DNA of 55,771 nucleotides from Thiobacillus sp. 65-1059. GTDB taxonomy: Bacteria > Pseudomonadota > Gammaproteobacteria > Burkholderiales > Thiobacillaceae. Positions 15,032 through 30,253 of the stretch are shown piece by piece; position 1 is the first letter of the stretch, and each line of letters starts with the position of its first letter. The stretch is taken from NCBI GenBank assembly GCA_001897675.1, contig MKUE01000139.1:1-55771 (forward strand). Direction: 5' to 3'. The notes under the pieces were generated by a model. That model saw only the letters and a list, made by a program, of their open reading frames with translations. It was not told the DNA's origin and searched no databases. The position numbers and the translations under genes are program-made.

Positions 15032-16453
15032 ATGGCTGTCAAAACCTATAACGCCGGTGTGAAGGAATACCGGCAGACTTACTGGATGCCCGAATACACG
15101 CCGCTGGATACCGACATCCTCGCGTGCTTCAAGATCACCCCGCAGCCTGGCGTGGACCGTGAAGAAGTGGCCGCCGCCGTGGCCGCCGAGTCGTCGACCG
15201 GCACCTGGACCACGGTGTGGACCGACCTCTTGACCGACCTCGACTACTACAAGGGCCGCGCCTACCGCATCGAAGACGTGCCCGGCGACGACACCTGCTT
15301 CTACGCTTTCGTGGCTTACCCGATCGACCTGTTCGAAGAAGGCTCGATGGTCAACGTGCTGACCTCGCTGGTCGGCAACGTGTTCGGCTTCAAGGCCCTG
15401 CGCGCCCTGCGCCTGGAAGACATCCGCTTCCCGATCGCCTATGTCAAGACCTGCGGCGGCCCGCCCCTGGGCATCCAGGTCGAGCGCGACGTCATGAACA
15501 AGTACGGCCGTCCGCTCTTGGGCTGCACCATCAAGCCGAAGCTGGGTCTGTCCGCCAAGAACTACGGTCGTGCCGTGTACGAGTGCCTGCGCGGCGGTCT
15601 GGACTTCACCAAGGACGACGAGAACGTCAACAGCCAGCCCTTCATGCGTTGGCGCGACCGTTTCGCCTTCGTCCACGAAGCGACCGAAAAGGCGATCCGC
15701 GAGACCGGCGAGCGCAAGGGCCACTACCTGAACGTCACCGCCCCGACTCCGGAAGAGATGTACAAGCGTGCCGAATTCGCCAAGGAAATCGGCGCTCCGA
15801 TCATCATGCACGACTTCCTGACCGGCGGTCTGACGGCCAACACCGGCCTCGCCAACTGGTGCCGCAACAACGGCATGCTGCTGCACATCCACCGCGCCAT
15901 GCACGCCGTGCTCGACCGCAACCCGCACCACGGCATCCACTTCCGCGTGCTGACCAAGGTGCTGCGCCTGTCCGGCGGTGACCACCTGCACTCCGGCACC
16001 GTCGTCGGCAAGCTGGAAGGCGACCGCGAAGCGACCCTGGGCTGGATCGACATCATGCGCGACAGCTTCATCAAGGAAGACCGCAGCCGCGGCATCTTCT
16101 TCGACCAGGACTTCGGTTCCATGCCTGGCGTGATGCCGGTTGCCTCCGGCGGCATCCACGTGTGGCACATGCCCGCGCTGGTCACCATCTTCGGTGACGA
16201 CTCCGTGCTGCAGTTCGGTGGCGGCACGCTCGGCCACCCCTGGGGCAACGCCGCTGGCGCCGCCGCCAACCGCGTCGCGCTGGAAGCCTGCGTGGAAGCC
16301 CGCAACAAGGGTGTCCAGGTCGAGAAGGAAGGCAAGGCCATTCTGACCGAAGCAGCCAAGAACTCGCCGGAACTGAAGATCGCCATGGAAACCTGGAAAG
16401 AGATCAAGTTCGAGTTCGACACCGTCGACAAGCTGGACGTCGCCCACAAGTAA
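15032..16453 (+). CDS. cbbL: Form I RuBisCO large subunit
   Basis: A 473-residue large subunit of Form I (IAq-like, judging by the adjacent cbbQ and cbbO and the lack of carboxysome genes). The active-site lysine of TIKPK is K168. The carbamylated lysine K194 lies in GLDFTKDDE with metal ligands D196 and E197. Loop 6 is present later in the protein ([18 protein letters not shown]). It catalyses CO2 fixation onto ribulose-1,5-bisphosphate. ATG 15032 is chosen for its AGGAG site and the exact family length; an upstream in-frame start at 14960 would run through the promoter. It is first in the cbbL-cbbS-cbbQ-cbbO operon under CbbR. Confidence 0.98.
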
Positions 16454-16461
16454 GACGGTCA

Positions 16462-16529
16462 GGCGTGAGGGGTGAGGAGTGAGGCGTATCGCCCTCCCCC
16501 GCCTTACGCCTAACGCCTAACGCCTCACC
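16462..16529 (+). repeat. Heptamer inverted-repeat element in the cbbL-cbbS gap
   Basis: The left arm (16462-16487) repeats GTGAGG-type heptamers. The right arm (16501-16529) repeats CGCCTAA/ACGCCTA units. The arms are complementary apart from scattered mismatches and would form a hairpin in the message. A shorter relative lies at 17928-17985. Confidence 0.75.
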
Positions 16530-16548
16530 TAATTCGAAAGGATATGAA

Positions 16549-16905
16549 ATGTCTGAAGTGATGGATTACAAAAGCCGTCTGAGCGACCCCGCCAGCCGCA
16601 AGTTCGAGACCTTCTCCTACCTGCCCGCCATGGATGCAGCCAGCATCAAGGCCCAGGTCGAGTACCTGGTGAAAAAAGGCTGGAACCCGGCGATCGAGCA
16701 CATCGAGCCCGAGCACATGATGGATTCCTACTGGTATATGTGGAAGCTGCCGATGTTCGGCGAAACCGACGTGACCCGTGTGCTGGCCGAGGCCGAAGCC
16801 TGCCACAAGGCCAACCCCGATAACCACGTCCGTCTGATTGGCTACGACAACTTCTCGCAGAGCCAGGGCGCGTCGATGGTGATCTACCGCGGCAAGACCG
16901 TTTAA
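16549..16905 (+). CDS. cbbS: Form I RuBisCO small subunit
   Basis: A 118-residue small subunit. It shows the family segments FETFSYLP near the start, [16 protein letters not shown], and [14 protein letters not shown], with the small loop of bacterial Form I enzymes. Eight copies cap the L8S8 holoenzyme. An AAAGGA Shine-Dalgarno precedes ATG 16549. It follows cbbL after 95 bases occupied by an inverted-repeat element and is followed by an intrinsic terminator, so cbbLS can be expressed above the downstream activase genes. Confidence 0.98.
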
Positions 16906-16926
16906 GTCGCGACGGGTGACCGTACC

Positions 16927-16960
16927 AGCCCCCGTCGCCCGCAGGGCGCGGGGGCTTTTT
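16927..16960 (+). terminator. Intrinsic terminator after cbbS
   Basis: The stem agcccccg/cgggggct (16927-16934 and 16949-16956) is closed by a GC-rich loop and followed by TTTTTG. It separates cbbLS from cbbQO. Confidence 0.8.
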
Positions 16961-16973
16961 GTTGGTCTTGTTT

Positions 16974-17099
16974 ATCCGCGAAGGACGCGAAGAAACGCGA
17001 AGAATCCCCGGTGGAACCCGATCCGGGGATTGCCGGGGCTGCAGGCGGCGCACGCGTTTTGAAGACTTCCCTTCGCGCCCCTTCGCGTCCTTCGCGGAT
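16974..17099 (+). repeat. 126-bp element with 19-bp perfect terminal inverted repeats
   Basis: The left end atccgcgaaggacgcgaag (16974-16992) has its exact complement at 17081-17099. A further CGCGAAG/CTTCGCG unit lies inside each arm. An inner palindrome atccccgg/ccggggat is at 17004-17030. No coding capacity is seen. It looks like a miniature repeat element (MITE- or REP-like) in the cbbS-cbbQ gap; the CGCGAAGGA heptamer is familiar from other proteobacterial intergenic repeats. Confidence 0.75.
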
Positions 17100-17121
17100 G
17101 AATAAATTTTAAGGAGTCCAC

Positions 17122-17925
17122 ATGAGCAGCATCGTCGATCAGTACCGCATCACCAAGGAACCCTACTACCGTCCCGTCGCCGACGAGGTCGAGCTGTTCG
17201 AAGCCGCCTATTCGGTGCGCATGCCGATGATGCTGAAAGGCCCGACGGGCTGCGGCAAGACGCGCTTCGTCGAATACATGGCGCACAAGCTGAACAAGCC
17301 GCTGATCACCGTGGCGTGTAACGAGGACATGACTGCATCCGACCTGGTCGGCCGTTTCCTGCTGTCCGCGCAGGGCACCGAATGGCAGGACGGCCCGCTG
17401 GCGATCGCCGCGCGCCATGGTGCCATCTGCTATCTCGACGAAGTCGTCGAGGCGCGCCAGGACACCACCGTGGTGATCCACCCGCTGACCGACAACCGCC
17501 GCGTGCTGCCGCTGGAAAAGAAGGGCGAGCTGGTCAACGCGCACCCCGACTTCCAGATTGTGATTTCGTACAACCCCGGCTACCAGTCGCTGATGAAGGA
17601 CCTGAAGCAGTCGACCAAGCAGCGCTTCGGCGGGCTGGACTTCACCTATCCGGCGCACGACATCGAGACCGAGATCGTCGCGCACGAGTCGGGCGTCAAC
17701 GCCGACGTCGCCGGCAAGCTGGTGTCGATCGCCGAGCGCAGCCGCAACCTCAAGGGCCACGGCCTCGACGAGGGCCTGTCGACCCGCATGCTGATCTACG
17801 CAGGCTCGCTGATCGCCAAGGGTGTGAACCCGCAGGCCGCCTGTCGCGTCGCGCTGGTACGCCCGATCACCGACGACCCGGACATGCGTGACGCGCTGGA
17901 TGCGGCGGTGTCGACGTTTTTTTAA
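17122..17925 (+). CDS. cbbQ: CbbQ, MoxR-family AAA+ RuBisCO activase subunit (Form I operon)
   Basis: A 267-residue AAA+ ATPase, the same length as the Form II copy at 463. Walker A is GPTGCGKT and Walker B is ICYLDE. The segment [32 protein letters not shown]... is shared by both copies almost unchanged, and divergence concentrates near the termini and in the [17 protein letters not shown] region. It forms the motor of the CbbQO activase for Form I RuBisCO. AAGGAG (17111-17116) precedes ATG 17122. A terminator and a repeat element lie between it and cbbS. Confidence 0.96.
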
Positions 17926-17927
17926 AT

Positions 17928-17985
17928 GCGTGAGGCGTGAGGCGTGAGGCGAAAAAAGCCCGCGCCCTCGCCTAACGCCTAACGC
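17928..17985 (+). repeat. Heptamer inverted-repeat element in the cbbQ-cbbO gap
   Basis: Three tandem GCGTGAG units (17928-17951) face CGCCTAACGCCTAACGC (17969-17985). The arms pair with about one mismatch per heptamer. The cbbO ATG follows 12 bases later. It has the same repeat family as the element at 16462. Confidence 0.75.
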
Positions 17986-17996
17986 TTTTTAAAGCC

Positions 17997-20354
17997 ATGT
18001 CGATCAAACTCGAAGACTACGCCGAACTGCTGGAAGACCTGACGCCGCATAGCCGGGAGGCCCTCGAGGCCAACTGGCACGAGGCGACCAAGGTGTTCTC
18101 GCCGCGCGGGCTCGATAATTACCTGAAGGGCGTGTCGGCCATCCGTGGCCTGGGGCGCGGCGACACGCTCGTCGAAACCTGGATCGAGCAGGCGCCGCAG
18201 GTGGCCAAGGAGGTGGGCGAGGACGTGGTGGCCGACCTGGCCACCGCCTCGCTGATGCTGGCGTCGAAGACGTCGGGCGCGGTGATCGAGCTGCTGCTCG
18301 CCAGCGCGCCGACGGCCGCCAACCGGCTGGGCGACGCCGGGCTGTTCCTCAAGTACCTGCAGTTCATCAACACCCTGCTCGCGCAGGCACCGCGCGGCGT
18401 GCGGCCGATGCTCGACAAGCTGGAAGTGCTGTTCCAGCACCTGACCCTGGGCGGCCTGCGGCGCTGGGCGCTGTGGGGCGCGCATGCGCACCGCACCAAT
18501 TACGAGGAGCAGATCCGCTACTTCGGCCTGGAGTCGAAGGAATCGCTGGCGATGCTGCAGAAGGAGCGCAAGGGCACGCTCCTGGTCGACGTGCAGCGCC
18601 GCATCAACATGTATCTGCGGGCCTTGTGGGCGCGCGACTTCTTCATGCGCCCGACCTCGGGCGACTTCGAGGCGCGCGAAGGTTACAAGCCCTACATCGC
18701 CGATTACCTCTTGCACCTGCCCGACGCCTACGACGACTGGACGGTCGAAGGCCAGGAGCCGGTGCCCGGCATCGAGCTCTATCGCGCCACCGCCGCGCAC
18801 TGCGCCGCGCACATCGTCGAAACCCGCGTGCCGATCTCCGCCGAGGCGCTGAACCCGATGCAGATGGCGGTGATCTCCGTGATCGAGGACGCACGAGTCG
18901 AGGCCCTGGCGATCCGCCGCTTCCCCGGCCTCAAGCAGCTCTGGTGTCGGCTGCATACCGCCACGCCCGAGATGGGCAACACCGTCGGCGACTACCTCAA
19001 CCGGCTGGCGCGCGCGCTGCTCGACGAAAGCTACCGGGACGACGACGCTTGGGTCGCCGAGGGCCGGGCGCTGTTCGCGCAAGCGCAGGACCGGCTCGAC
19101 ACCAACCAGACCTCGTGGGAAATCGGCGTGCAGCTGGCGCACAGCCTGACGCAGAAGAAGATCCCCTTCAATGCGCGCACCGACCTGCTGACGGCGCCGT
19201 ATCGCGACGACAACCGCTACTTCTGGGAATTCGAGGAGTTCGATTTCGACAAGGCCGCCGGCGCCGGCTACGAATCCGTCAAGCAGGTGCGCAAGAACGT
19301 CAGCGTGATGGAGATGATCAACGAGATCGACGTCGAGACCGCGGGCGACGACGCCGAGGAAATCTGGGTGCTTTCCACCGAGCTCTTCCCCTACGAGAAC
19401 ATCGGCGACGAGAGCAACGGCAAGAGCTTCAACGAGATGGAAGGCAAGGAGCCGATGTCCGATCCCTTCCACTATTCCGAGTGGGACTACCAGATCCAGC
19501 TCGAGCGTCCAGCCTGGGCCACGGTGCTGGAAAAGCGCGCCAAGGTGGGCGATCTCGCGGTGATCGACGAGATCACCGCCAAGTACAAGCGCGAGATCCA
19601 CCGCATGAAATTCCTGCTCGACGCGATGCAGCCGCAGGGCGTGCAGCGCATCAGGAAGCTGGAGGACGGCGACGAGATCGACATCAACGCGGCGATCCAG
19701 AGCTTCACCGACATCCGCCTCGGCAACCAGCCCGACCCGCGCATCATGATGCGCAGCGTGCGCAAGACGCGCGACTTCTCGATCCTGGTGCTGCTCGATC
19801 TGTCCGAGTCGACCAACGAGACGGTGCAGGACCAGGAGTACTCGGTGCGCGAGCTCACCCAGCAGGCCTGCGTGCTGCTGGCCGATGCGATCAACAAGGT
19901 GGGCGATCCGTTCGCGATCCACGGCTTCTGCTCGGACGGCCGTCACAACGTCGAGTATTACCGCTTCAAGGACTTCGACCAGCACTGGGACGAGACGCCG
20001 AAAGCGAAGCTCGCCGGCATGACCGGCCAGCTGTCGACCCGCATGGGCGCGGCGATCCGCCACGCCGGCCATCACCTGAAGCTGCAGCGCTCGGCGAAGA
20101 AGCTGCTGATCGTCATCACCGACGGCGAACCCGCCGACATCGACGTGCGCGACCCGCAATACCTGCGCTACGACACCAAGAAGGCGGTGGAGGAAGTCGC
20201 CCGCAATGGCGTCACCACCTACTGCATGAGCCTCGATCCGCGCGCCGACAACTACGTGTCGCGCATCTTCGGGCAGAAGAACTTCATGGTGGTCGACCAC
20301 GTGCAGCGGCTGCCGGAGAAATTGCCGATGCTGTATGCCGGACTAACCCGCTAG
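17997..20354 (+). CDS. cbbO: CbbO, von Willebrand A-domain RuBisCO activase subunit (Form I operon)
   Basis: A 785-residue CbbO, somewhat longer than the Form II copy. The C-terminal vWA domain has the MIDAS DLSES (D601, S603, S605) followed by later ITDGEPADID. The N-terminal two thirds are helical. It is the adaptor that lets CbbQ act on RuBisCO. ATG 17997 directly follows the heptamer repeat element and no good Shine-Dalgarno is visible (the preceding bases are TTTTTAAAGCC), which may limit its translation. The 98-residue gene downstream starts 10 bases after its stop and probably belongs to the same operon. Confidence 0.95.
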   Translation: MSIKLEDYAELLEDLTPHSREALEANWHEATKVFSPRGLDNYLKGVSAIRGLGRGDTLVETWIEQAPQVAKEVGEDVVADLATASLMLASKTSGAVIELLLASAPTAANRLGDAGLFLKYLQFINTLLAQAPRGVRPMLDKLEVLFQHLTLGGLRRWALWGAHAHRTNYEEQIRYFGLESKESLAMLQKERKGTLLVDVQRRINMYLRALWARDFFMRPTSGDFEAREGYKPYIADYLLHLPDAYDDWTVEGQEPVPGIELYRATAAHCAAHIVETRVPISAEALNPMQMAVISVIEDARVEALAIRRFPGLKQLWCRLHTATPEMGNTVGDYLNRLARALLDESYRDDDAWVAEGRALFAQAQDRLDTNQTSWEIGVQLAHSLTQKKIPFNARTDLLTAPYRDDNRYFWEFEEFDFDKAAGAGYESVKQVRKNVSVMEMINEIDVETAGDDAEEIWVLSTELFPYENIGDESNGKSFNEMEGKEPMSDPFHYSEWDYQIQLERPAWATVLEKRAKVGDLAVIDEITAKYKREIHRMKFLLDAMQPQGVQRIRKLEDGDEIDINAAIQSFTDIRLGNQPDPRIMMRSVRKTRDFSILVLLDLSESTNETVQDQEYSVRELTQQACVLLADAINKVGDPFAIHGFCSDGRHNVEYYRFKDFDQHWDETPKAKLAGMTGQLSTRMGAAIRHAGHHLKLQRSAKKLLIVITDGEPADIDVRDPQYLRYDTKKAVEEVARNGVTTYCMSLDPRADNYVSRIFGQKNFMVVDHVQRLPEKLPMLYAGLTR

Positions 20355-20363
20355 AATCCCTGT

Positions 20364-20660
20364 ATGAACAATACTTACGTAGGCCTCAACAAGGATCATC
20401 ACGGCATCACCCAGCTCGGACGCATCGTGCTGGACGGCCGGGTGTTCGGCTTCATTCCCGACAGCGAGGACTGTGCCGGCTGGGATCTGGGGCGCATGCA
20501 GCTGCTGATGGACAAGATCAGCGCGGAATGGGACAAGTACGACAACCTGCCCAGCCGGCTGCCGCCCGAGCTGCAACAGCGGCATACGGAAATCTACGCC
20601 AAAGCCATGGCCGACGCCCGGGCCAGGGGCTGGGATCCGGAACTGGGCGACGACGACTAA
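20364..20660 (+). CDS. Unknown 98-residue acidic protein after cbbO
   Basis: A 98-residue soluble protein starting MNNTYVGLNKDHHGITQLGR. It is acidic (ending ELGDDD), without TM or signal features, and contains GRVFGFIPDSEDCAGW and a helical C-terminal half with PELQQRHTEIYAKAMADARARGWDP. I do not recognise the family. It lies 10 bases after cbbO on the same strand, so cotranscription with the activase genes is likely and a role near RuBisCO is possible. It is convergent with the SulP gene, with 8 bases between stops. Composition matches the chromosome, so it is not an obvious transfer. Confidence 0.75.
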   Translation: MNNTYVGLNKDHHGITQLGRIVLDGRVFGFIPDSEDCAGWDLGRMQLLMDKISAEWDKYDNLPSRLPPELQQRHTEIYAKAMADARARGWDPELGDDD

Positions 20661-20668
20661 GGCCGCGC

Positions 20669-22309
20669 TCAGGCCGCCGCCGGCGGCTCGGTCGGCACCG
20701 TTGCCAGAACGTCGAGCAGGCTGATGCGCGCGTCGGCCTGGCCCACGCGGCCGAGCAGGCCGAAGTTCGCCAGCTTGTCGTTGATGCGCGCGTTGGCCTC
20801 GCATAGCAACACCTTCACCCCGCGCTGCTGGAAGTGGCGCGTCAGATCGGCCAGCGCCTGCATCGCGGTGGCATCCACCATCGGAACCTGTCCCAGCCGC
20901 AAAATCAGCACGCGCGTCTGGTCGTGCAGACCGGCGAGCGTGCGCTCGAAGGTCGCGGCGGCGCCGAAGAACAGCGGCCCGTCGATCGAGTAGATCTGCA
21001 CCCCCTTCGGCACTCCGACCGGGCACACGCCCGCGAGGCTGGTGTCGCTTTCGCCCTCGATCGTCACCGTCTCGCTCATGCGCTTCATGAACAGCAGCGC
21101 CGCCAGCAGCACGCCGACGTTGACCGCGATCACGAGGTCGGCGAACACCGTCAGCAGGAAGGTGATCAGCAGCAGCGCGCGGTCGTTGGCCGGCGCGTGG
21201 CGCAGCAGGTCGACGAAGTGGCGCGCCTCGCTCATGTTCCACGCCACCACGAACAGGATCGCCGCCAGCGCGGCGAGCGGAATGTGCGCCGCCAGCGGCG
21301 CCAGCGCGACGATGACGGCGAGTAGCACGAGTGCGTGCACGATGCCGGCGAGCGGGCTGTTGCCGCCGTTGCGGATGTTGGTGGCGGTGCGCGCGATCGC
21401 GCCGGTGGCGGCGAAGCCGCCGAAGAAGGGCGTGGCGAGGTTGGCGATGCCCTGGCCGACCAGCTCCTGGTTGGGATTGTGGCGGGTGCCGGTCATGCCG
21501 TCGGCGACCACCGCGCACAGCAGCGATTCGATCGCGCCGAGCATGGCGATGGTGAACGCCGGGCCGATGAGTTCCAGCACGCGGCCGAAGGTGACTTCCG
21601 GCAGTTGCAGCTCGGGCAGCCCTGACGGGATGCCGCCGAATGCGCTGCCGATGGTGGCGACGCCGTCGAACTGGAAGTAGGCCTGCGCCAGCGTGGCGGC
21701 GAGCATCGCGACGAGCGGGCTGGGAATGCGCCGGGTGACGCGGGGCATGAGTACGACGAGGACGAGCGCGCCGAGCGCGAGCAGCATGGTCGGCAGGTGC
21801 AGGCCGGGCATCGCCTCGACCAGCGCGATCAGCTTTTCGTGGAAGTGCTGGCCGGACGCTGCCGATGCGAGGCCGAAGAAATCCTTCCACTGGCCGACGA
21901 AGATGATGACCGCGATCCCGGCGGTGAAGCCGGTGATGACCGGGGTGGGGATGAAGCGGATGATGCCGCCCAGCTTGACCAGGCCCATCGCCAGCAGGAT
22001 CAGGCCGGCCATCAGGGTGGCGATCTGCAGGCCGCCGATGCCGTATTGGGCGGTGATGCCGGCGAGGATGACGATGAAGGCGCCGGTCGGGCCGCTGATC
22101 GAGACGCGCGAGCTGCCGAACAGGGACGCCAGCAGGCCGGCCACGATGCCGGTGTAGATGCCCTGCTCGGGGCGGGCGCCGCTGGCGATGGCGAAGGCCA
22201 TGGCCAGCGGCAGCGCGACGACGCCGACCACCAGGCCGGCGCCGAGGTTGCGCATGAAGTGGCGCCGGCCGAACAGCCCAGCTTTCCAGGACTCCAGCGC
22301 GGCGATCAT
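20669..22309 (-). CDS. SulP-family anion transporter (bicarbonate or sulfate), with STAS domain
   Basis: A 546-residue SulP (SLC26) transporter. The TM domain of about 12-14 segments starts NLGAGLVVGVVALPLAMAFA and contains the family segment NPNQELVGQGIANLATPFFGGF. A C-terminal STAS domain (about 430-540) follows. BicA-like SulPs import bicarbonate with sodium, and others carry sulfate. It is the last gene of a minus-strand operon and follows the gamma-carbonic anhydrase gene by 9 bases. That pairing, beside RuBisCO, favours DIC uptake, but sulfate export in a sulfur oxidiser cannot be excluded. Confidence 0.9.
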   Translation of the reverse strand: MIAALESWKAGLFGRRHFMRNLGAGLVVGVVALPLAMAFAIASGARPEQGIYTGIVAGLLASLFGSSRVSISGPTGAFIVILAGITAQYGIGGLQIATLMAGLILLAMGLVKLGGIIRFIPTPVITGFTAGIAVIIFVGQWKDFFGLASAASGQHFHEKLIALVEAMPGLHLPTMLLALGALVLVVLMPRVTRRIPSPLVAMLAATLAQAYFQFDGVATIGSAFGGIPSGLPELQLPEVTFGRVLELIGPAFTIAMLGAIESLLCAVVADGMTGTRHNPNQELVGQGIANLATPFFGGFAATGAIARTATNIRNGGNSPLAGIVHALVLLAVIVALAPLAAHIPLAALAAILFVVAWNMSEARHFVDLLRHAPANDRALLLITFLLTVFADLVIAVNVGVLLAALLFMKRMSETVTIEGESDTSLAGVCPVGVPKGVQIYSIDGPLFFGAAATFERTLAGLHDQTRVLILRLGQVPMVDATAMQALADLTRHFQQRGVKVLLCEANARINDKLANFGLLGRVGQADARISLLDVLATVPTEPPAAA

Positions 22310-22318
22310 GTCAGCGGA

Positions 22319-22879
22319 TCAGAACTCGTTGCGGATGCGCTTGTAACCCTTGACCAGCTCGTAGTTCGCCTGGGTCACGCTTTCCGAGAAGCTCGCCGCG
22401 TCGGGCGTGACGCGTTCGATCGTTTCCAGATCCTTGTCGGAGTGAATGTTGGCGGTCGAAGGGATATAGAAGCTGTGCGGCACCTCGCAGCCTTCGACCA
22501 CCGAGTTGTGGCGGATCACCGAGTGGCTGCCGACCACGCAGTTGAACAGCACCGAGTTGAAGCCGACGAAGACGCTGTCGCCGACGGTGCAGGGGCCGTG
22601 CACGATCGAGCGGTGTGCGATCGAGGTGCCCTTGCCGATGTTGACGCCGCCGCCGGCCTTGCAGTGGATGACGACGCCGTCCTGGATGTTGGAGTTGGCG
22701 CCGATGACGATGGGCTCCATCTCGCCGTTCTCATCGACCTCGTCGGCGCGGATCACGGCGTAGGGGCCGATGAAGACGTTCTCTTCGACGATGACCTTGC
22801 CGCAGAGGATGGCGGTGGGGTCGACGAAGGCGGTTTCGTGCACGACGGGCACATGTCCGGAAGGATTTTTTCGAATCAT
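22319..22879 (-). CDS. Gamma-class carbonic anhydrase-like hexapeptide protein
   Basis: A 186-residue left-handed beta-helix protein with repeats of the IVIGANSNIQDGVVIH type. Three histidines fit the zinc ligands of gamma carbonic anhydrase: one in VVIHCKAGGG and two in GTSIAHRSIVHG with the H-x4-H spacing. It would interconvert CO2 and bicarbonate in the cytoplasm. Activity is not assured, as many CA-like homologues (CaiE, PaaY) are poor enzymes. ATG 22879 is chosen; upstream in-frame codons run through the hairpin. It lies between TSUP and SulP genes of the same operon, which suggests a joint role in inorganic carbon handling. Confidence 0.85.
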   Translation of the reverse strand: MIRKNPSGHVPVVHETAFVDPTAILCGKVIVEENVFIGPYAVIRADEVDENGEMEPIVIGANSNIQDGVVIHCKAGGGVNIGKGTSIAHRSIVHGPCTVGDSVFVGFNSVLFNCVVGSHSVIRHNSVVEGCEVPHSFYIPSTANIHSDKDLETIERVTPDAASFSESVTQANYELVKGYKRIRNEF

Positions 22880-22906
22880 GATGATGTCTCGAGCGGTACA
22901 GATGGA

Positions 22907-22935
22907 CAGAGAGCCGGGGGGCACCCGGCTCTCTG
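22907..22935 (-). repeat. Intercistronic hairpin between TSUP and gamma-CA genes
   Basis: A perfect 12-bp stem (cagagagccggg, 22907-22918, with cccggctctctg, 22924-22935) with a 5-base loop. No T-run follows in the direction of transcription, so it may stabilise or mark a processing point rather than terminate. Confidence 0.65.
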
Positions 22936-22972
22936 GATAATACCACTGCCCCCGGCGGCGGCCGGGCGGCGC

Positions 22973-24064
22973 TTACTCGGCGACGCCGACCTGGTCGGTG
23001 TGCGCCGCGTGCTGCTTCTTGTGCTCGCGGATGCCCTTGAACAGCGCCGACAGCACGGTCCACGCGCCGACGATCAGCGCCAGCGCCAGCACGCCGTCGC
23101 CGACCCACTTGAGGATCTGCACGGTCGACTCGGGCAACGGCTCGATCATGCCGAGCTTGCCGAGGTAGCCGGGGATGTAGAAGAAGCGCGAAAACAGCAC
23201 GGTCAGCATGATCACCGCCATGGTGAACTTGACCTGGTAGTCCTTCACGTAGGTGGTGCCGATAGCGCCGACCTGGATGCCGAACAGCGAGCCGAGCAGG
23301 ATCAGCATGGCGAGGCGGATGTCGACCACGCCTTCGAGGCCGTAGAAGATGGTGCCGCCGAGGCCCATGATGAAGGCGATGACCAACTCGGTGGCCGAGG
23401 CCATGATCGCCGGCAGGCCGAGGATGTAGATCATCGCCGGCACGCCGATGAAGCCGCCGACCGCGATCGCCGAGGCGAGGAAGCCGGTGGCGAAGCCGAT
23501 CGGCACCAGGAACAGGATCGAGATCCGGGCCTGCGCGCCCTTCGAGTAGATCATGGTGCCGGGGATGTTGACCGACTGCACCCAGCGCGCCAGCTTGGTG
23601 AGCGGGGCGGCCTGCTCGCTGCCGTCGCCGGCGTCGTCGAGCGCCTTCAGCTTCTTGTAGTCCTTCAGCACGAAGCCGCCGACGATGGCGAGCGTGACGA
23701 CGAACATGCCGGACACGTAGAGGTCGGTACCGACCGCGCCGAAGGCGTTCTTGATGTTGGTCATCACGTGCTTGCCGAACAGCACGCCGGCTTCGGCGAA
23801 CAGGCCGAGGATCAAGCCCAGCTTGACGTCGACCTGGCCGTACTTGTTGCGCTTGACCGCGCCGACCAGCGCCTTGGGAAACTTGTGGCAGATGTTGGAG
23901 GCGACCGCGACGATGCCGGGCGCGCCCAGGGTCATCATCGCCGGGGTCAGCACGAAGGCGCCGCCGGAGCCGATGAAGCCGGACACCATGCCGCCGACGA
24001 AGCCGACCAGGATCAGCAGGATCGCGGTCAGGGGAGTGATTTCAATGAAATTGATGAGTTCCAT
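22973..24064 (-). CDS. TSUP (TauE/SafE) family permease
   Basis: A 363-residue membrane protein with the TSUP N-terminal pattern ILVGFVGGMVSGFIGSGGAFVLTPAMM and the repeat-half motif AIAVGGFIGVPAMIYILG. A cytoplasmic loop of about 60 residues (KKLKALDDAGDGSEQ...) interrupts the two halves. TSUP permeases carry sulfite, sulfonates, thiosulfate or other small anions. In a sulfur-oxidising autotroph it could export sulfite or sulfate, but the gamma-CA and SulP neighbours leave a carbon role open. It is fourth in the sigma-54 operon, 30 bases after the two-TM protein gene. The C-terminal tail HKKQHAAHTDQVGVAE is hydrophilic. Confidence 0.88.
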   Translation of the reverse strand: MELINFIEITPLTAILLILVGFVGGMVSGFIGSGGAFVLTPAMMTLGAPGIVAVASNICHKFPKALVGAVKRNKYGQVDVKLGLILGLFAEAGVLFGKHVMTNIKNAFGAVGTDLYVSGMFVVTLAIVGGFVLKDYKKLKALDDAGDGSEQAAPLTKLARWVQSVNIPGTMIYSKGAQARISILFLVPIGFATGFLASAIAVGGFIGVPAMIYILGLPAIMASATELVIAFIMGLGGTIFYGLEGVVDIRLAMLILLGSLFGIQVGAIGTTYVKDYQVKFTMAVIMLTVLFSRFFYIPGYLGKLGMIEPLPESTVQILKWVGDGVLALALIVGAWTVLSALFKGIREHKKQHAAHTDQVGVAE

Positions 24065-24094
24065 GATGGGTATGATCTCGTTGGGTGGATGCGC

Positions 24095-24409
24095 TTACTT
24101 CTTGGCCTTGAGACCGAACAGGTCCCAGAACACGCCGGTGAAGTTGCCGTGGGTATACGACAGCGCGAACGCCATCGCGATGGGCGCGAACACGTACCAC
24201 CACACGCCGTCGATGAAGGTGCCGCCCTCGGCCGCGCAGAGCTCGGGCGTGGCCTTGTTGTAGTAGTCGGTGCCGGCCACGCAGGCATCGAGCGTGGTGT
24301 GCGCCAGCACTTCGAAGGAACCGGCGTACTGGAACAGCAGCCAGTACAGCACCACGGTGATGCTGCCCCACAGCAGGGCGGGGCCGAGTTTGGACTTGTC
24401 TTTGATCAT
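24095..24409 (-). CDS. Unknown small membrane protein with two TM helices
   Basis: A 104-residue protein. TM1 lies at about 11-28 (ALLWGSITVVLYWLLFQYAG), then a loop of about 35 residues with two cysteines (one in LDACVAG, one in ELCAAEGG) and TM2 at about 66-85 (GVWWYVFAPIAMAFALSY). The loop is probably periplasmic and could form a disulfide. The GNFTGVFWDLFGLKAKK tail is cytoplasmic. I do not recognise a named family. GGAG lies upstream of ATG 24409. Its place directly before the TSUP gene suggests an accessory subunit of that permease. Confidence 0.75.
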   Translation of the reverse strand: MIKDKSKLGPALLWGSITVVLYWLLFQYAGSFEVLAHTTLDACVAGTDYYNKATPELCAAEGGTFIDGVWWYVFAPIAMAFALSYTHGNFTGVFWDLFGLKAKK

Positions 24410-24446
24410 GGAGAGGCTCCCTAAACGTGAAAGGTGGATGAAAGGA

Positions 24447-24821
24447 TCAGGCTTCGTGCGGCTGGCCCGGCGAATCGGAGGCGGCGACCAGCGGACACTC
24501 CAGCCGCGCCCAGTGGTCGGTGCCGTTCTCGGTCGCCCAGGCGCCGGGGCGGCCGACGACGACCGAGACGATGCCCTCGTGGCTGCGTGCGTAATCGACG
24601 ACCTGGCGGATATCGATGCCCGGCATCGGGGTCAGGCGGCAACTCACCTCGCCGCGTGACAACTGGGTGAGGCGGGTGACGATGTCTTCCCAGCGCGGAT
24701 GGTCGGGATCGGCGATGACCTCGAGGTCGGCGTCCATGCGGCGCGCCAGGGCCGCACCCGCGGCGAACAGGCGTTCGACCGGCGAGACGGGGCGCAGGGC
24801 CAGCAGCACGCGACGCGACAT
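24447..24821 (-). CDS. Universal-stress-protein-like protein
   Basis: A 124-residue protein with a Usp-like start (RRVLLALRPVSPVERLFAAGAALARRMDADLEVI), i.e. beta strand, long helix, beta strand, and a later VVDYARSHEGIVSVVVGRPG segment. The C-terminal ATP-binding G-2x-G-9x-G(S/T) motif is not clear, so nucleotide binding is uncertain. The start ATG overlaps the upstream stop by one base (TGATG), showing translational coupling with the 62-residue gene. As the second gene of the transporter operon it may be a soluble regulator of the permeases. A second Usp-like gene is likewise paired with the third SulP at 34351. Confidence 0.65.
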   Translation of the reverse strand: MSRRVLLALRPVSPVERLFAAGAALARRMDADLEVIADPDHPRWEDIVTRLTQLSRGEVSCRLTPMPGIDIRQVVDYARSHEGIVSVVVGRPGAWATENGTDHWARLECPLVAASDSPGQPHEA

Positions 24822-25009
24822 CAGGCGGGCTCGGCGACGGCGGCAACGGGGAGTTCGGCCGGCGCTTCGCGCCCGTCCTGCGGCCGGGCCGCCGCTTCGG
24901 CGCGCTCGGGCATGGCCCAGCCGAGGCCGCGGGCGGATTGCAGGCGTTCTTCCAGATAGGTCTGGTAGGGCGTGCGCGGGGTCAGCACTTCGATACGCAG
25001 TTTTGACAT
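24821..25009 (-). CDS. Unknown 62-residue protein, first gene of the sigma-54 operon
   Basis: A 62-residue soluble protein starting MSKLRIEVLTPRTPYQTYLEERLQ, with an Ala/Pro-rich C-terminal tail (PQDGREAPAELPVAAVAEPA). No family recognised. It is the first gene after the near-consensus sigma-54 promoter, about 28 bases of leader, and its stop overlaps the start of the Usp-like gene. The conserved-looking N-terminal half and position make it a real gene more likely than not. Confidence 0.65.
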   Translation of the reverse strand: MSKLRIEVLTPRTPYQTYLEERLQSARGLGWAMPERAEAAARPQDGREAPAELPVAAVAEPA

Positions 25010-25048
25010 GGTCTTGACTCGCTTTTTACATTGAGTTGAGCGGTCTTA

Positions 25049-25064
25049 AGCACCATGCGTGCCA
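25049..25064 (-). promoter_or_regulatory. Predicted sigma-54 promoter of the SulP/gamma-CA operon
   Basis: Reading the minus strand, TGGCACG-CATG-GTGCT matches the sigma-54 consensus TGGCACG-N4-TTGCW. It has exact spacing between the invariant GG and GC and one mismatch in the -12 block. Transcription would start near 25038, about 28 bases before the first start codon (25009). The adjacent divergent genes encode a two-component system with a sigma-54 activator. Confidence 0.8.
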
Positions 25065-25125
25065 GGGTAAATAATCTCAATAAATCAGTATGTTGACGTT
25101 TGGTCTCGGGGCGGGGCACGCTGGG

Positions 25126-25143
25126 GTTGTTACATTTTGCAAC
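25126..25143. promoter_or_regulatory. Candidate upstream activator site for the NtrC-type regulator
   Basis: GTTGTTACATTTTGCAAC is an imperfect palindrome (GTTG...CAAC, GTTAC/GCAAC). It lies 60-80 bases upstream of the sigma-54 -24 element, a normal enhancer distance. It also lies just before the kinase gene, so it could serve autoregulation. Confidence 0.45.
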
Positions 25144-25162
25144 GTGAGGTTAGACTCTCGGG

Positions 25163-26611
25163 ATGCGTTCCCTCCAAGCCAAGATCGCGCTGGCCTATCT
25201 CTCGCTCGCGGCGCTCGTCGTCGGCCTGTCGGCGGTCGCGTTGATCGAGCTGGCGCGCATCGAGGACAAGGTGCGCGAGGGCGGCAAGGTGACCGAGTTG
25301 TTCGACGCGACACTGGAAATGCGGCGTTTCGAGAAGAACTACTTCCTCTATGGCCAGCCGGCCGACCTCGACGACCATGCCCGCTTTCTCGCGCGCACGC
25401 GCGAGCTGGCGGGGCGCGATGCGGCGGTGATCGACGCGGTGGCCGGGCGCGGAACGGCGGCGCGGCTGGCTGGCGGGTTGGCGGGCTACGCGGAGGCCAT
25501 GGCCGCGCACGTGCGCCGGCCGGCCGACGATGCGGTATCCGCGCGGGTGCGTGCCTACGGCAACCGCATCGTCACCCTGGGCGAGCAGCTCGCGCAGCGC
25601 GAGCGGCGCTCGGTCGACCTCGCGCTGCAGGCCCACCGCCGCAATTTCCTGTTTTTCCTGGGCGCAGTGGCGGCGATCCTGGTGCTGACCGGTTTTCTGC
25701 TTGCGCGCCTCGTCACGCGCCCGTTGAAGGCCATGGAGGTCCACATGGAGGCGGTCGCCAGCGGCCAGCTGGTGCGGCTCGAGCCGGATAGCCGCGACCG
25801 CGAATTCGTCTCGCTGACCGAGGCGTTCAATCACGTGCTCGACGAGCTGGAACGCCGCCAGCACACCCTGGTGCGCTCGGAAAAGCTCGCTTCGCTCGGC
25901 ACGCTGCTGTCGGGGGTGGCGCACGAGCTCAACAACCCGCTGTCGAACATCTCCTCGTCGGCGCAGATTCTCAGGGAGGACCCGTCGATCGACCCGGAAC
26001 TGCGTGCGCAGATGATCGAGGATATCGACGCCGAGACCCTGCGCGCGCGCCACATCGTGCGCGCGCTGCTCGACTATTCCGGCGACCGCGATTTCCGGCT
26101 GCGACCGGTGGCGCTCGCCGGGCTGGTCGAGGAGACGCTGCGCTTCCTCAAGAACAAGCGCCCGACCGGGGTCGAGGTCCGCGTCGACATCCCGGCCGGG
26201 CTCACCGTCACCGCCGACCGCCCGCGCCTGCAGCAGGTGCTGCTCAACCTCGTCGTCAACGCCTACGACGCCATGGGTAGCGCCGGCGAGCTCGCCATCG
26301 CGGCGCGCCAGCTGAGGGCAGGCGAACGCGACGACGATTTCCCGGCGCCGCTTTCCGGCGGCCGCGCCGGCGGCGCGGCGGTGGAGATCGAGGTGGCCGA
26401 CAACGGTCCCGGCATCCCGCCCGAGATTCTCGAGCGCGTATTCGACCCCTTCTTCACCACCAAGGGGGTGGGCCACGGCAGCGGGCTGGGGCTCTTCATC
26501 GCCTATGAGATCATCGAGAAACACGGCGGCTGCATGGTCGCCGACAACCGTCCCGGCGGCGGCGCGCGCTTCCGCATCCGCCTGCCGGCCGACCTGAAAG
26601 AATCCGCATGA
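25163..26611 (+). CDS. Sensor histidine kinase, NtrB-like, membrane-bound
   Basis: A 482-residue kinase. TM1 (about 7-29), a periplasmic helical sensor region (about 30-160), TM2 (about 162-182), HAMP, then HisKA with GVAHELNNPLSN (phospho-acceptor His254) and a HATPase domain with N-box NLVVNAYDAMG, DNGPGIP and GHGSGLGLF. It lies divergent from the sigma-54 operon and overlaps the next gene by 4 bases (ATGA), so it is the partner of the NtrC-family regulator. The periplasmic domain is of a four-helix-bundle-like composition, so the ligand is not predictable from sequence. A bicarbonate, CO2, sulfite or redox cue would fit the neighbours. Confidence 0.92.
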   Translation: MRSLQAKIALAYLSLAALVVGLSAVALIELARIEDKVREGGKVTELFDATLEMRRFEKNYFLYGQPADLDDHARFLARTRELAGRDAAVIDAVAGRGTAARLAGGLAGYAEAMAAHVRRPADDAVSARVRAYGNRIVTLGEQLAQRERRSVDLALQAHRRNFLFFLGAVAAILVLTGFLLARLVTRPLKAMEVHMEAVASGQLVRLEPDSRDREFVSLTEAFNHVLDELERRQHTLVRSEKLASLGTLLSGVAHELNNPLSNISSSAQILREDPSIDPELRAQMIEDIDAETLRARHIVRALLDYSGDRDFRLRPVALAGLVEETLRFLKNKRPTGVEVRVDIPAGLTVTADRPRLQQVLLNLVVNAYDAMGSAGELAIAARQLRAGERDDDFPAPLSGGRAGGAAVEIEVADNGPGIPPEILERVFDPFFTTKGVGHGSGLGLFIAYEIIEKHGGCMVADNRPGGGARFRIRLPADLKESA

Positions 26612-27960
26612 ACGCACGTCTCCTGCTCGTCGACGACGAGCGCATCGCCCTCAGGAACCTCGAACACGTGCTGGCGAAGGAGGGCTACGACATCGTCGCC
26701 ACCCAGAGCGGCCGTCACGCGCTTGAGCTGGTCGACACGAAGCCTTTCGACCTGGTGCTGACCGACCTCAAGATGGACAAGGTCGACGGCATGCAGCTCT
26801 TGCAGCACTGCAAGGCGCGCCATCCCGACCTCGAGGTCATCATGATCACCGGCTTCGCCACGCTGGAATCCGCGGTGGAAGCGATGAAGGTCGGCGCCTT
26901 CCACTACATCGCCAAGCCGTTCCGCCTCGACGAGGTGCGGCAGACCGTCGCCGAGGCGCTGGAGAAGGTGCGCCTGAAGCGCGAGAACCGCGCGCTGCGC
27001 GAGCAGCTCGACGCCGTCAACGGCCGCACCCGCATCGTCACCCGCGACGGCGGCATGCAGAAGCTGCTGGACATGGCGCGCCAGGTCGCCGGCACCGGCG
27101 CCAACGTGCTGATCACCGGCGAATCGGGCACCGGCAAGGAGCTGTTCGCGCGCTACCTGCACGAGCACGGCGGCCGCCCCAAGGGCCCCTTCGTCGCGGT
27201 CAACTGCGGCGCGTTCAACGAAGAACTGCTGGCCAACGAGCTGTTCGGCCACGAGAAGGGCGCGTTCACCGGCGCCGTCGGCAAGGCGGGCCTCTTGCTC
27301 GCGGCCCACGGCGGCACGCTGTTCCTCGACGAGGTCACCGAGATGTCGCCCGGCATGCAGGTCAAGCTGCTGCGGGTGATCCAGGAGCGCGAGGTGCTGC
27401 CGGTCGGCGGCACCAAGCCGGTCAAGATCGACGTGCGCTTCATCGCCGCCAGCAACCGCAACATGAAGGACTGGGTCGCCGACGGGCGCTTCCGCCAGGA
27501 CCTGTATTTCCGCCTCAACGTCGTCAACCTGCACATTCCACCGCTGTCCGAGCGGCGCGACGATATCCCGCTGCTGGCGCAGTACTTCCTCGACCGCGCC
27601 GCGCCGGTGATGGGCAAGCCGGTGCGGGCGCTCTCCGACGAGGCGCTGGCGCTGCTGAAAAGCTACGATTTTCCCGGCAACGTCCGCGAACTGGAGAACA
27701 TCATCGAGCGTGGCGTTGCCTTGTGCCAGGGCGACACCCTGGCGGCGGCGCACCTGCCCGACGACCTGCGCGACCTGACGATCAAGGCCTTCCGCCGCCG
27801 CGAAGGCCGTGTCGCCTCGCTCGAGGAGCAGGAACGCGAGTACATCCAGTGGGTGCTCGAGCAGGCGCACGGCAACCAGACGCTGGCGGCGCAGATGCTC
27901 GGCATCGACCGGGTGTCGCTGTGGCGCAAGCTCAAGCGCTACGGCGGGGAGGCGGGCTGA
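26608..27960 (+). CDS. NtrC-family sigma-54 response regulator
   Basis: A 450-residue regulator with three domains. The receiver (1-120) has the acidic pair D9/D10 and phospho-acceptor D53. The AAA+ domain (about 140-375) has Walker A GESGTGKE (171-178) and the sigma-54 contact loop GAFTGA (218-223). The C-terminal Fis-type HTH (about 410-445) has [23 protein letters not shown]. It should use ATP to open a sigma-54 promoter when phosphorylated. The only sigma-54 promoter found nearby is the one of the divergent transporter operon, which makes that its probable target. A terminator-like hairpin follows. Confidence 0.95.
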
Positions 27961-27966
27961 GCGAAA

Positions 27967-27993
27967 AGCCCTTCCGGGAGGGCGGGGTTTTTT
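27967..27993 (+). terminator. Terminator-like hairpin after the NtrC-type regulator
   Basis: The stem GCCCT/AGGGC with loop TCCGGG is followed by GCGGGG and six T. The stem is short, so efficiency is uncertain. Confidence 0.5.
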
Positions 27994-27996
27994 GCT

Positions 27997-28027
27997 AAAC
28001 TGTTGCAGTTTGAAACGCTAGCGTTTC
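27997..28027 (+). promoter_or_regulatory. Two adjacent palindromes upstream of the second SulP gene
   Basis: aaactg-ttg-cagttt (27997-28011) is followed directly by the perfect palindrome gaaacgctagcgtttc (28012-28027). They lie 34 bases before the SulP start and could be an operator for a dimeric regulator or leader structure. No matching promoter was found by eye. Confidence 0.4.
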
Positions 28028-28060
28028 TCTTTTCAACGTTTTCCCGCCGTCCCGCCCGCC

Positions 28061-30196
28061 ATGAATCCGCTGCTCTATCGCCTGTTTCCGTTTCTCTACT
28101 GGTTTCCCATCAACAGCGTCATCCTGCGCGGCGACGTGATCGCGGGCATCACCGGCGCGCTGGTGCTGGTGCCCAAGGCGATGGCGTACGCGCAGCTGTC
28201 GGGCCTGCCGGTCTACTTCGGCCTCTACACCGCGCTGGTGCCGGCGATCCTCGGCGCGCTGTGGGGTTCGTCGCGCCAACTCGCCACCGGTCCGGTCGCG
28301 ATCATCTCGCTGATGACCGCCGCTGCGCTGACCCCGCTGGCGGTGCCGTTCTCCGAGGAATACATCGGCCTCGCCCTGCTGCTGACCCTGATGGTCGGCG
28401 TGATCCAGTTCGGCCTCGGCGCCTTCAAGTTGGGCGCGATCGTCAACTTCGTGTCGCACCCGGTGATTCTCGGCTTCATGAACGCGGCGGCGATCATCAT
28501 CGCGCTGTCGCAGCTCGACCTGCTGCTCGGCATCACCAAGGGCCGCAGCGACTCTTTCCTGGTCGACATCTGGGAGATGTTCGGCAACCTGTCGCAGGCC
28601 CACCTGCCGACGCTGGCGATGTCGGTGTTCGCGCTGGTGCTGATGCTGGTGCTGAAGAAGGTCAAGCTGTTGTCCAAGCCGAGCGTGCTGATCGCGGTGG
28701 TGATCACCACCCTGGTCAGCTACGCGATCGGCTTCGCCCACAAGACTTCGGGCACCCACGAGCACATCGCCGACCCGGCGGCGCGCGAGCTGGTGGCGTC
28801 CTACGTCGCCACCCAGCAGCAGGCCAAGACACTGCAGTCCGAGATCACGGCCAAGGGCGCCACGCTGCGCGAACTGGAGAAGTCGGGTGATCCGCGTGCG
28901 GTGACCGAGCTGCGCTACCGCATCGACCTGATGAAGCTCGAGGCGGAGAACCTCGAGAAGCAGAACAAGGAGCGCATGGGCTACCTGCGCAAGCTCGAGT
29001 TCGAGCGCTTCGACGCGCCGGAGTCGCAGACCGCGATGCTGTACGTGGCCGGCAAGGCGCCCGCTGGCGTGGCCACCGACGGCCAGAGCTGGCACATCAA
29101 GAAGATCGAGGACGGCAAGTTGAACCTCACCGGCGGCGGCGACGTCGTCGGCAACATCCCTGCCGGCCTGCCGTCGTTCCGCCTGCCGACGCTGACCTTC
29201 GACGCCATGCTGCAGCTCTTGTCGGCCGCGTTCATCATCGCGCTGGTCGCGTTCATGGAATGCATCTCGATGGCCAAGGCGCTCGCCGCCAAGACCAAGC
29301 AGCGCCTCGACCCCAACCAGGAACTGATCGGCCAGGGCATGGCCAACATGGGCGGCGCCTTCTTCCAGGCGTATCCGGCGACCGGCTCGTTCACCGGCTC
29401 GGCGATCAACCTGCAGGCCGGCGCGCAGACCGGCTTCGCCATGGTGTTCAACGGCCTGTTCGTCGCCGCGACCCTGCTGTTCCTGACGCCCTACCTCTAC
29501 CACCTGCCGAAGGCCACCCTGGGCGTGATCATCCTGCTCGCGGTCACCAGCCTGGTCACCCCGGCGGCGTTGAAGCACACCTGGAAGGCCAACAAGGCCG
29601 ACGGCATCGTCGCCGGCGTGACCTTCGCGGTGACGCTCTTGGCGGCGCCGCACCTCGACAAGGGCATCCTGATCGGCGCTGCGCTGGCGCTGGTGCTGTA
29701 TCTCTACCGCACCATGAAGCCGCGCGTCGCCCAGCTCGGCCGCCACAGCGACGGCACCCTGCGCGACGTCAAGGTGCATCCCGGCATTCCGACCAGCGAG
29801 CACGTCGTCGCCATGCGCTTCGACGGCCAGCTCTACTTCGCCAACGTGTCGCACTTCGAGGACGCCGTGCTCGAGACCGTGGCCGCGCATCCCAAGGCCA
29901 AGTACCTGCTGGTGGTGGGCGACGGCATCAACCAGCTCGACGCCACCGGCGAGGAGGCGATCCGTGCGATCCACGAACGCCTGCACGAGGGCGGCGTGAC
30001 CCTGGTGTTCTCCGGCCTCAAGAAGCAGGTGCTCGACGTGATGCGCAATACCGGCCTGTTCGACGAGATCGGCCAGCAGCACATCTTCCCCAACGAGGAT
30101 CAGGCGCTCGCCGTCATCTACGAATGGCTGGGCGAGGAGGGCCGCGACGATCTGTTCTGCCCGGTCGGCCGCAGCGAGCCGGCGCTGGCGAAATAA
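28061..30196 (+). CDS. SulP-family anion transporter with large coiled-coil insert and STAS domain
   Basis: A 711-residue SulP transporter, larger than usual (about 550-600). The first TM half ends near residue 225. Residues about 227-365 are an inserted hydrophilic segment with a coiled-coil-like part (about 240-313, rich in Gln, Glu, Lys, Leu) and a Gly-rich end. The second TM half holds LDPNQELIGQGMANMGGAFF and ends near 560. The C-terminal STAS domain follows, with VVGDGINQLDATGEEAIRAI. It probably carries bicarbonate or sulfate. It is alone between two terminators, downstream of the NtrC-type regulator on the same strand. Confidence 0.9.
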   Translation: MNPLLYRLFPFLYWFPINSVILRGDVIAGITGALVLVPKAMAYAQLSGLPVYFGLYTALVPAILGALWGSSRQLATGPVAIISLMTAAALTPLAVPFSEEYIGLALLLTLMVGVIQFGLGAFKLGAIVNFVSHPVILGFMNAAAIIIALSQLDLLLGITKGRSDSFLVDIWEMFGNLSQAHLPTLAMSVFALVLMLVLKKVKLLSKPSVLIAVVITTLVSYAIGFAHKTSGTHEHIADPAARELVASYVATQQQAKTLQSEITAKGATLRELEKSGDPRAVTELRYRIDLMKLEAENLEKQNKERMGYLRKLEFERFDAPESQTAMLYVAGKAPAGVATDGQSWHIKKIEDGKLNLTGGGDVVGNIPAGLPSFRLPTLTFDAMLQLLSAAFIIALVAFMECISMAKALAAKTKQRLDPNQELIGQGMANMGGAFFQAYPATGSFTGSAINLQAGAQTGFAMVFNGLFVAATLLFLTPYLYHLPKATLGVIILLAVTSLVTPAALKHTWKANKADGIVAGVTFAVTLLAAPHLDKGILIGAALALVLYLYRTMKPRVAQLGRHSDGTLRDVKVHPGIPTSEHVVAMRFDGQLYFANVSHFEDAVLETVAAHPKAKYLLVVGDGINQLDATGEEAIRAIHERLHEGGVTLVFSGLKKQVLDVMRNTGLFDEIGQQHIFPNEDQALAVIYEWLGEEGRDDLFCPVGRSEPALAK

Positions 30197-30212
30197 GCTG
30201 TTCGTCTCCAGG

Positions 30213-30242
30213 AAAGGCCCGGCCATGTGCCGGGCCTTTTTC
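30213..30242 (+). terminator. Intrinsic terminator after the second SulP gene
   Basis: A perfect stem aaaggcccgg/ccgggccttt with a 7-base loop is followed by a T-run (tttttc). Classic rho-independent form. Confidence 0.88.
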
Positions 30243-30253
30243 TTGGGCGCGCC

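Follow-up and report, generated by a model that had tools for sequence, protein, structure and literature searches.

A contig of 55,771 nucleotides from Thiobacillus sp. 65-1059 (MKUE01000139.1; hereafter the window) carries, beside genes for RuBisCO, a minus-strand cluster of six genes (p62, usp, tm2, TSUP, gammaCA and SulP) that lies divergently from genes encoding a sensor histidine kinase (HK) and a σ54-dependent response regulator (RR). The locus as a whole is probably best explained by a portable, anion-responsive σ54 switch that drives the first four genes, p62-usp-tm2-TSUP, much as DVU3305 does for its targets in Desulfovibrio vulgaris. Control of these four genes by a σ54 two-component system is well supported by comparison among loci.

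The candidate enhancer-promoter pair and its regulators

The −24/−12 element upstream of p62, TGGCACGCATGGTGCT, departs from the pattern TGGCAC-N5-TTGCW by one mismatch, is the sole single-mismatch match in the window and holds its GG and GC 10 bp apart, which bears out the proposal, made in an earlier sequence-only reading, of a near-consensus σ54 promoter with exact spacing. The genome encodes RpoN (PF04552, E 1.5e-65). The same reading had placed a palindrome 60–80 bases upstream; one of the GTTGCA-N3-TGcAAC type, GTTGCAAAATGTAAC, is found 65–79 bp beyond the −24 end of TGGCACGCATGGTGCT, a position that also falls within the expected HK promoter region. As a 16-base pattern this candidate upstream activating sequence (UAS) has one exact match in the 2.9-Mb genome, and its one-mismatch matches are in C19, in C20 and at one place just before the SulP2 gene (on both strands).

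Both elements were followed through 57 TSUP loci obtained in one scan with the TSUP protein of the window, a set that favours relatives of that protein and in which near-copies are counted apart. Of the 57, 21 also encode a homologue of the HK, of the σ54 RR or of both. In the Thiobacillus type these genes are transcribed away from TSUP; in L043, L045, L046, L048 and L053 they share its strand and either precede or follow it. Whole loci were then scanned under a rule that asked for a palindrome matching at 10 or more of 12 positions and, 74–105 bp further on, a σ54-like site scoring at least 0.70. The pair was recovered in 23 loci from several phyla, namely 20 of the 21 HK/RR loci and three short contigs (L050, L051 and L055), and was absent by this rule from the 33 loci outside these two groups. 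Conservation of the −24/−12 element together with gene order, which the earlier reading had set as a test, is thus found. The spacing of the pair on the TSUP strand is 77–97 bp, and Nitrospirota are among its carriers (L023, L027 and L052; one is a Nitrospira). The matches total 29, some of them repeat readings or readings of the opposite strand; three Markov replicates gave 1, 2 and 2. Many non-Thiobacillus loci hold two palindromes about 87 bp apart. In an alignment of nine loci that have the divergent HK and RR genes, invariant columns make up 9 of the 16 promoter positions, 11 of the 15 in the palindrome and 12 of the remaining 128; nine of these 12 belong to the HK start and to a possible HK −10 element, GTTAGACT, in which seven of eight columns are invariant.

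The divergent genes do encode a kinase and a GAFTGA-bearing activator, as claimed earlier, and the latter has the features of the NtrC family: a receiver, an AAA+ domain with GAFTGA, a Fis-type helix-turn-helix (HTH), an adjacent kinase and a candidate palindromic UAS. Nineteen of the 20 locus RRs share the recognition helix [LM]GI-RVSLWRK; the one outlier comes from L027, where the true RR is cut by the locus end and another RR was compared. Betaproteobacteria, Nitrospirota and Desulfobacterota-type genomes have the DNA site, its spacing and the recognition helix in common, so that the switch appears to be old and portable. The sensor region of the HK is predicted to form long helices; among 17 sequences 14 of its columns do not vary, E52, R54, R55, E57, K58, N59, R130 and R148 being among them. 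No solved structure matches it at E 0.001 or better, the nearest being the generic four-helix sensors PcaY, NarQ and QseE; its invariant basic residues would suit an anion.

The pair also leads to the module in searches that use no protein information. The pattern palindrome-N55-85-TGGCA-N8-GC was found in 24 of 117 genomes of the family and, as a reversed control, in 0 of 117. HK/RR homologues adjoin 22 of the 24 matches, of which nine stand before usp-tm2-TSUP, 12 before genes of the usp-SulP2 type and one in a locus where the HK alone was seen (L128); module genes are lacking at the other two (L122 and L126). Of the 22 module matches, 21 have a usp gene after the promoter and 21 have a transporter. 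The TSUP matches overlap the 57-locus set, so the new information lies in the twelve SulP2 loci. In an order-wide sample the pattern matched 12 of 399 genomes (control, 1), and five of the 12, the Thiobacillus genome itself included, have the module. Taken together, HK-RR, UAS and promoter would constitute a portable σ54 switch with exchangeable transporters (TSUP or SulP2) and nearly always a Usp, SulP2 being a likely member of an alternative cargo of the same switch. A history with a single gain of this switch was rejected: the TSUP tree (55 of the 57 loci; 24 rows labelled, including L050, L051 and L055) needs 11 label changes, at least eight of them forced by starred branches. Two genomes of one genus in the order-wide sample, L105 and L106, share the palindrome-promoter pattern with no clear module genes within 3 kb and are possibly another target of the switch.

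In the mechanism that we propose, the HK would phosphorylate the RR in response to a signal from the periplasm, for which an anion or an anion-related stress is the likeliest candidate. Phosphorylated RR (RR~P) would bind the GTTGCA-N3-TGCAAC-type palindrome some 98 bp upstream of the expected start and open the σ54 promoter, switching on p62-usp-tm2-TSUP; gammaCA-SulP would probably receive only part of this transcription. RR~P may also repress HK and SulP2, since the palindrome falls within the expected HK promoter region and has a second copy ahead of SulP2. This copy, GTTGCAGTTTGAAAC, has one mismatch and is recognisable in the RR-SulP2 gap of six aligned loci, most weakly in L007 and L008. 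A σ54 site for SulP2 was sought and is not claimed, the candidate being a weak one that overlaps the palindrome in L004, L005 and L016.

Gene content and the possible inorganic-carbon half

TABLE 1. Features of the σ54 switch locus and its surroundings, in window coordinates.
Feature	Positions	Strand	Remarks
−24/−12 element TGGCACGCATGGTGCT	25049–25064	−	GG-GC spacing 10 bp; transcription start expected at ~25038
Candidate UAS palindrome GTTGCAAAATGTAAC	25129–25143	−	GTTGCA-N3-TGcAAC type; putative RR site
Conserved block GTTAGACT	25149–25156	+	just before HK start; possible HK −10
Second, imperfect UAS GTTGCAGTTTGAAAC	28002–28016	+	before SulP2; putative
p62	24821–25009	−	small protein, family unassigned; homologues in switch loci
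usp (Usp-fold protein, 124 aa)	24447–24821	−	Usp by predicted fold
tm2	24095–24409	−	small protein; two transmembrane segments in the earlier reading; near-constant TSUP partner
TSUP (TauE/SafE) transporter	22973–24064	−	PF01925
Terminator-like hairpin, TSUP/gammaCA	22907–22935	−	weak T tract
TGGTATTAT	22937–22945	−	possible extended −10 for gammaCA-SulP
gammaCA (gamma carbonic anhydrase)	22319–22879	−	hexapeptide; carbonic-anhydrase/CcmM-like profile matches
SulP transporter	20669–22309	−	PF00916 + STAS
HK	25163–26611	+	HAMP-HisKA-HATPase; helical sensor region with invariant ExRRxEKNxxLY
RR	26608–27960	+	receiver-AAA-HTH_8; GAFTGA; Fis-type HTH
SulP2, 711 aa	28061–30196	+	sulfate-permease family; homologues are putative direct switch targets in other genomes
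cbbL, cbbS, cbbQ, VWA-domain gene, 98-aa gene	15032–20660	+	convergent with the cluster

The six minus-strand frames are all open, start with ATG and lie where the sequence-only reading had put them (Table 1), and its Usp-like, TSUP, gamma-CA and SulP assignments stand, the first by fold and the others by profile matches. At E 0.1 neither p62, the 124-aa Usp-like protein nor tm2 has a Pfam or NCBIfam match. The 124-aa protein thus fails the Pfam cutoff for Usp, but its predicted structure (AlphaFold, mean pLDDT 88) has the Usp fold: the best Foldseek matches are universal stress proteins, with 3tnj at E 6.9e-5 and TM-score 0.54, and TM-scores of the best Usp matches are about 0.5–0.7. The TSUP protein matches PF01925 at E 1.5e-35 (123.5 bits, cutoff 32.6), is the only match to itself in its own genome at E 1e-5 and has no meaningful match among solved structures up to E 1; its closest relative, L002, labelled Thiobacillus sp. 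65-1402, has a 100% identical protein. SulP2 scores above the cutoff of the sulP model. The claimed RuBisCO neighbourhood is also confirmed, with cbbL, cbbS and cbbQ convergent with the cluster; the VWA-domain gene of the cbb group we take, from its position, to be cbbO, and the 98-aa gene has no Pfam match.

Several features of TSUP neighbourhoods were noted in passing. An open reading frame cluster containing tm2 is present in 50 of the 57 TSUP loci (single linkage; in a few loci it is joined to a Usp part); the tm2 homologues, mostly of 74–110 aa, end in a conserved HGxF...G tail and lack a Pfam match, and tm2 may be a subunit of TSUP. TSUP is apparently fused to a tandem Usp in one frame in L024, L026, L029–L033, L035 and L039 (read in L024; of similar length, 635–674 aa, in the others), the tandem Usp being a separate next gene elsewhere. 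Many loci without the switch cassette (L003, L009, L012 and others) have an OmpR-type regulator and kinase pair near TSUP, perhaps an alternative control of it, and such a pair occurs at 30420–32463 of the window. A cytidylate-kinase-like protein lies in or beside the TSUP cluster of L043, L045, L047 and L048 (Pfam on L048). Far from the locus, at 46570–47742, a single frame begins with a match to fatty-acid desaturase and ends with one to an ISL3 transposase profile.

The tight packing ascribed to the cluster holds for four of its junctions and fails at the fifth. From p62 onwards there is a 1-nt overlap, followed by gaps of 37, 30, 93 and 9 bp, and the 93-bp gap, between TSUP and gammaCA, contains a hairpin. 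All 11 TSUP-gammaCA gaps contain a stable hairpin, which follows a TATNAT box (TGGTATTAT in the window) and in many cases is accompanied by a T tract; a hairpin also precedes gammaCA in seven loci with a tandem Usp gene (usp2) in between, which brings the total to 18 of 18 TSUP- or usp2-gammaCA junctions. No obvious hairpin of this kind was seen at a gammaCA away from TSUP (L020) or at a TSUP without gammaCA (L011). The structure looks like a terminator or attenuator, and because it intervenes, gammaCA-SulP are probably expressed less than TSUP or apart from it. Its T tract is weak in the window, so read-through is plausible; gammaCA-SulP likely depend on such read-through or on a promoter of their own.

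The TSUP-gammaCA-SulP order occurs both where the switch is present and where it is absent, and in several loci it ends against cbb-side genes. The DNA of L003, which lacks the cassette genes, is 85–98% identical to that of L002 per 200-bp block through TSUP-gammaCA-SulP; identity is lower, at about 80%, in tm2, and upstream of that gene it is at background level. The gammaCA protein has the hexapeptide repeat and histidines of its family and aligns with solved gamma carbonic anhydrases and with CcmM; its VVIH and IAHRSIVHG align with VVLHA and LAHQSQVHG, and the histidines of these conserved stretches are presumably zinc ligands. With the DauA and BicA models SulP scores under the cutoff (for BicA, 276.5 bits where 880 are required). 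Its best solved-structure match is 6ki1, which we take to be BicA, and it has E where 6ki1 has D in IDALL, a residue that is presumably part of the sodium site. As in BicA and SulP-CS, a SulP-family gene here stands beside carbonic anhydrase and RuBisCO genes. In L006, L014, L018 and L019 gammaCA is followed not by SulP but by NADH-dehydrogenase/hydrogenase-4-like proton-pumping membrane subunits (judged by eye), possibly another pairing for CO2 uptake.

Relation to published systems and competing explanations

The sequence-only reading had regarded σ54 control of such a module as apparently new, and as what would be a regulatory logic distinct from CbbR. The literature does not sustain this. 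DVU3305 of D. vulgaris, grouped with the HK DVU3304 and the Lon-type RR DVU3303, is reported to target both its own operon and DVU3302-3298 (PMC3333781, PMC4641369). The products of the latter genes are membrane or hypothetical proteins, some of which contain UspA domains (PMC3333781); among them, DVU3299 is described as a putative anion transporter that is important under chlorate (PMC10102598). Orthologues with conserved sites are reported in Thermodesulfovibrio, Thioalkalivibrio and Dechloromonas (PMC3333781, PMC4641369, PMC10102598). The window resembles this system in having an HK and a σ54 RR beside Usp and anion-transporter genes, the DVU gene content being taken from the published descriptions; a correspondence of TSUP to DVU3299, or of the UAS to the DVU3305 binding motif, would be putative, and own-operon targeting is reported for DVU3305 and would have its counterpart in the window. 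It differs in that its RR has GAFTGA in place of GAFSGA, in the addition of p62, gammaCA and SulP, and in adjoining cbb genes. Lon-type RRs are present in 7 of the 57 TSUP loci (domains checked on L048); none is present in the 15-kb locus L002, and receiver and Lon matches (E 1e-10) in the Thiobacillus genome itself never share a frame. Lacking this Lon-domain partner, the window system is not classed as a member of the DVU3303-3305 type, which it would resemble in its working.

Other precedents are less close. D. vulgaris has nine σ54 operons with TSUP/PSE transporters, for example DVU0132-0133 under DVU0110/DVUA0057 (PMC4641369), which resemble the window in their control by σ54 and an enhancer-binding protein and differ in their regulators; in plasmid searches with RR and TSUP, the D. 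vulgaris plasmid was absent among the best 15 records of each (in one search, the best 15 of at least 5000). A σ54 activator near RuBisCO is not new either. Thioalkalivibrio thiocyanoxidans, like Thiobacillus a sulfur oxidiser, has a σ54 enhancer-binding protein with GAFTGA six genes upstream of RuBisCO, and both are raised on thiocyanate (PMC5744179); its target promoter is not defined in that account, and the likeness is one of description. Within the open-licence literature covered, no paper on the Thiobacillus locus was found among the matches listed. On this comparison the switch of the window is better viewed as a variant of a known control type than as a new regulatory logic.

Several observations weigh against an anion-responsive, DVU3305-like switch. 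Taken by itself, the promoter motif is at chance level: −24/−12 matches with at most two mismatches number 31 in the window where 30.55 are expected, and those with at most one number 93 in the genome against 111 in the reversed control. The −12 GC is degenerate (TTGTT, TTGAA, TTGAT) in several Nitrospirota/Desulfobacterota-type loci, so a perfect promoter is unlikely in several of the distant loci; L054, the sole miss among the HK/RR loci, has its elements 125 bp apart, outside the rule; and GAFTGA is replaced by EAFTGA or DAFTGA in five of the 20 RRs. In the pattern search L119 is identical to the locus of the window and most other TSUP matches appear to come from species of the 57-locus set, hence are not independent, and seven of the 12 order-wide matches have no module genes within the 3-kb locus. 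Finally, in D. vulgaris the regulators DVU3303-3305 are detrimental under chlorate and DVU3299 is beneficial (PMC10102598), opposite effects that simple activation does not fit.

The nature of the anion is a question within the preferred explanation. TSUP and SulP2 may move sulfur oxyanions, in a sulfite/sulfate efflux-uptake switch whose HK senses sulfite or sulfate, and this choice of substrate falls somewhat short of an even chance. It accords with the TauE/SafE membership of TSUP, with the sulP score of SulP2, with the interchange of the two as cargo and with locus record names that include sulfur oxidisers and sulfate reducers. Set against it are the presence of the UAS-promoter pair in Nitrospirota, a Nitrospira among them, the generic fold of the HK sensor and the published view that function predictions for TSUP are not feasible (PMC5840216).

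A second explanation, close to that of the sequence-only reading, is a single six-gene operon for uptake of dissolved inorganic carbon (DIC), driven throughout by σ54, with CO2 acquisition placed under the two-component system instead of CbbR. The recurring TSUP-gammaCA-SulP order, its end at the cbb side in several loci, the 9-bp gammaCA-SulP gap and the weak T tract are all in its favour, and SulP-CS of Thiomicrospira pelophila is reported to rescue an Escherichia coli carbonic-anhydrase mutant (PMC12628692). A second SulP of that organism gave no rescue, however. Against a single unit stand the hairpin at every junction examined, the possible −10 box in all TSUP-gammaCA gaps and the near-identical genes of L003 without the cassette; the switch travels with usp-(tm2-)TSUP or usp-SulP2, while gammaCA-SulP sit behind a conserved hairpin and also occur in switch-less loci. 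The six-gene DIC operon is therefore unlikely, and control of carbon acquisition by the switch is possible. A bolder form of the switch explanation, in which a mobile cross-phylum cassette captured gammaCA-SulP in Thiobacillus, so that carbon acquisition obeys an anion/stress signal, and in which RR~P raises TSUP-gammaCA-SulP and lowers SulP2 through GTTGCAGTTTGAAAC, is a speculation that we rate as improbable.

A general stress response, with Usp central and the transporter accessory, has been proposed for DVU3303-3305 and fits the induction of the D. vulgaris genes by high pH, heat shock and stationary phase (PMC3333781), the near-constant usp gene after the promoter and the tandem Usp that adjoins or shares a frame with TSUP elsewhere; the Thiobacillus Usp is short and divergent, without a Pfam match, and a transporter is as constant in the module matches as usp, which leaves this explanation doubtful. 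A merely accidental resemblance to a σ54 promoter, with the cluster transcribed from σ70 promoters instead, agrees with the motif counts and is otherwise very hard to reconcile with cross-phylum conservation alongside a UAS at narrow spacing, with recovery of the module by pattern alone and with the sole σ70-like match in 20300–30500, a chance number, lying on the other strand.

Implications of the proposed switch

Palindrome, spacing and promoter together make up an enhancer-promoter code, derived from sequence, by which the targets of this uncharacterised two-component system can be predicted across several phyla of sulfur- and nitrogen-cycling bacteria. Relatives of Thiobacillus with near-identical TSUP-gammaCA-SulP genes, with and without the cassette, form a natural promoter-swap series in which the coupling of carbon acquisition to anion stress could be probed. 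The exchange of TSUP and SulP2 behind one switch suggests, moreover, that these two poorly characterised transporters have related substrates.

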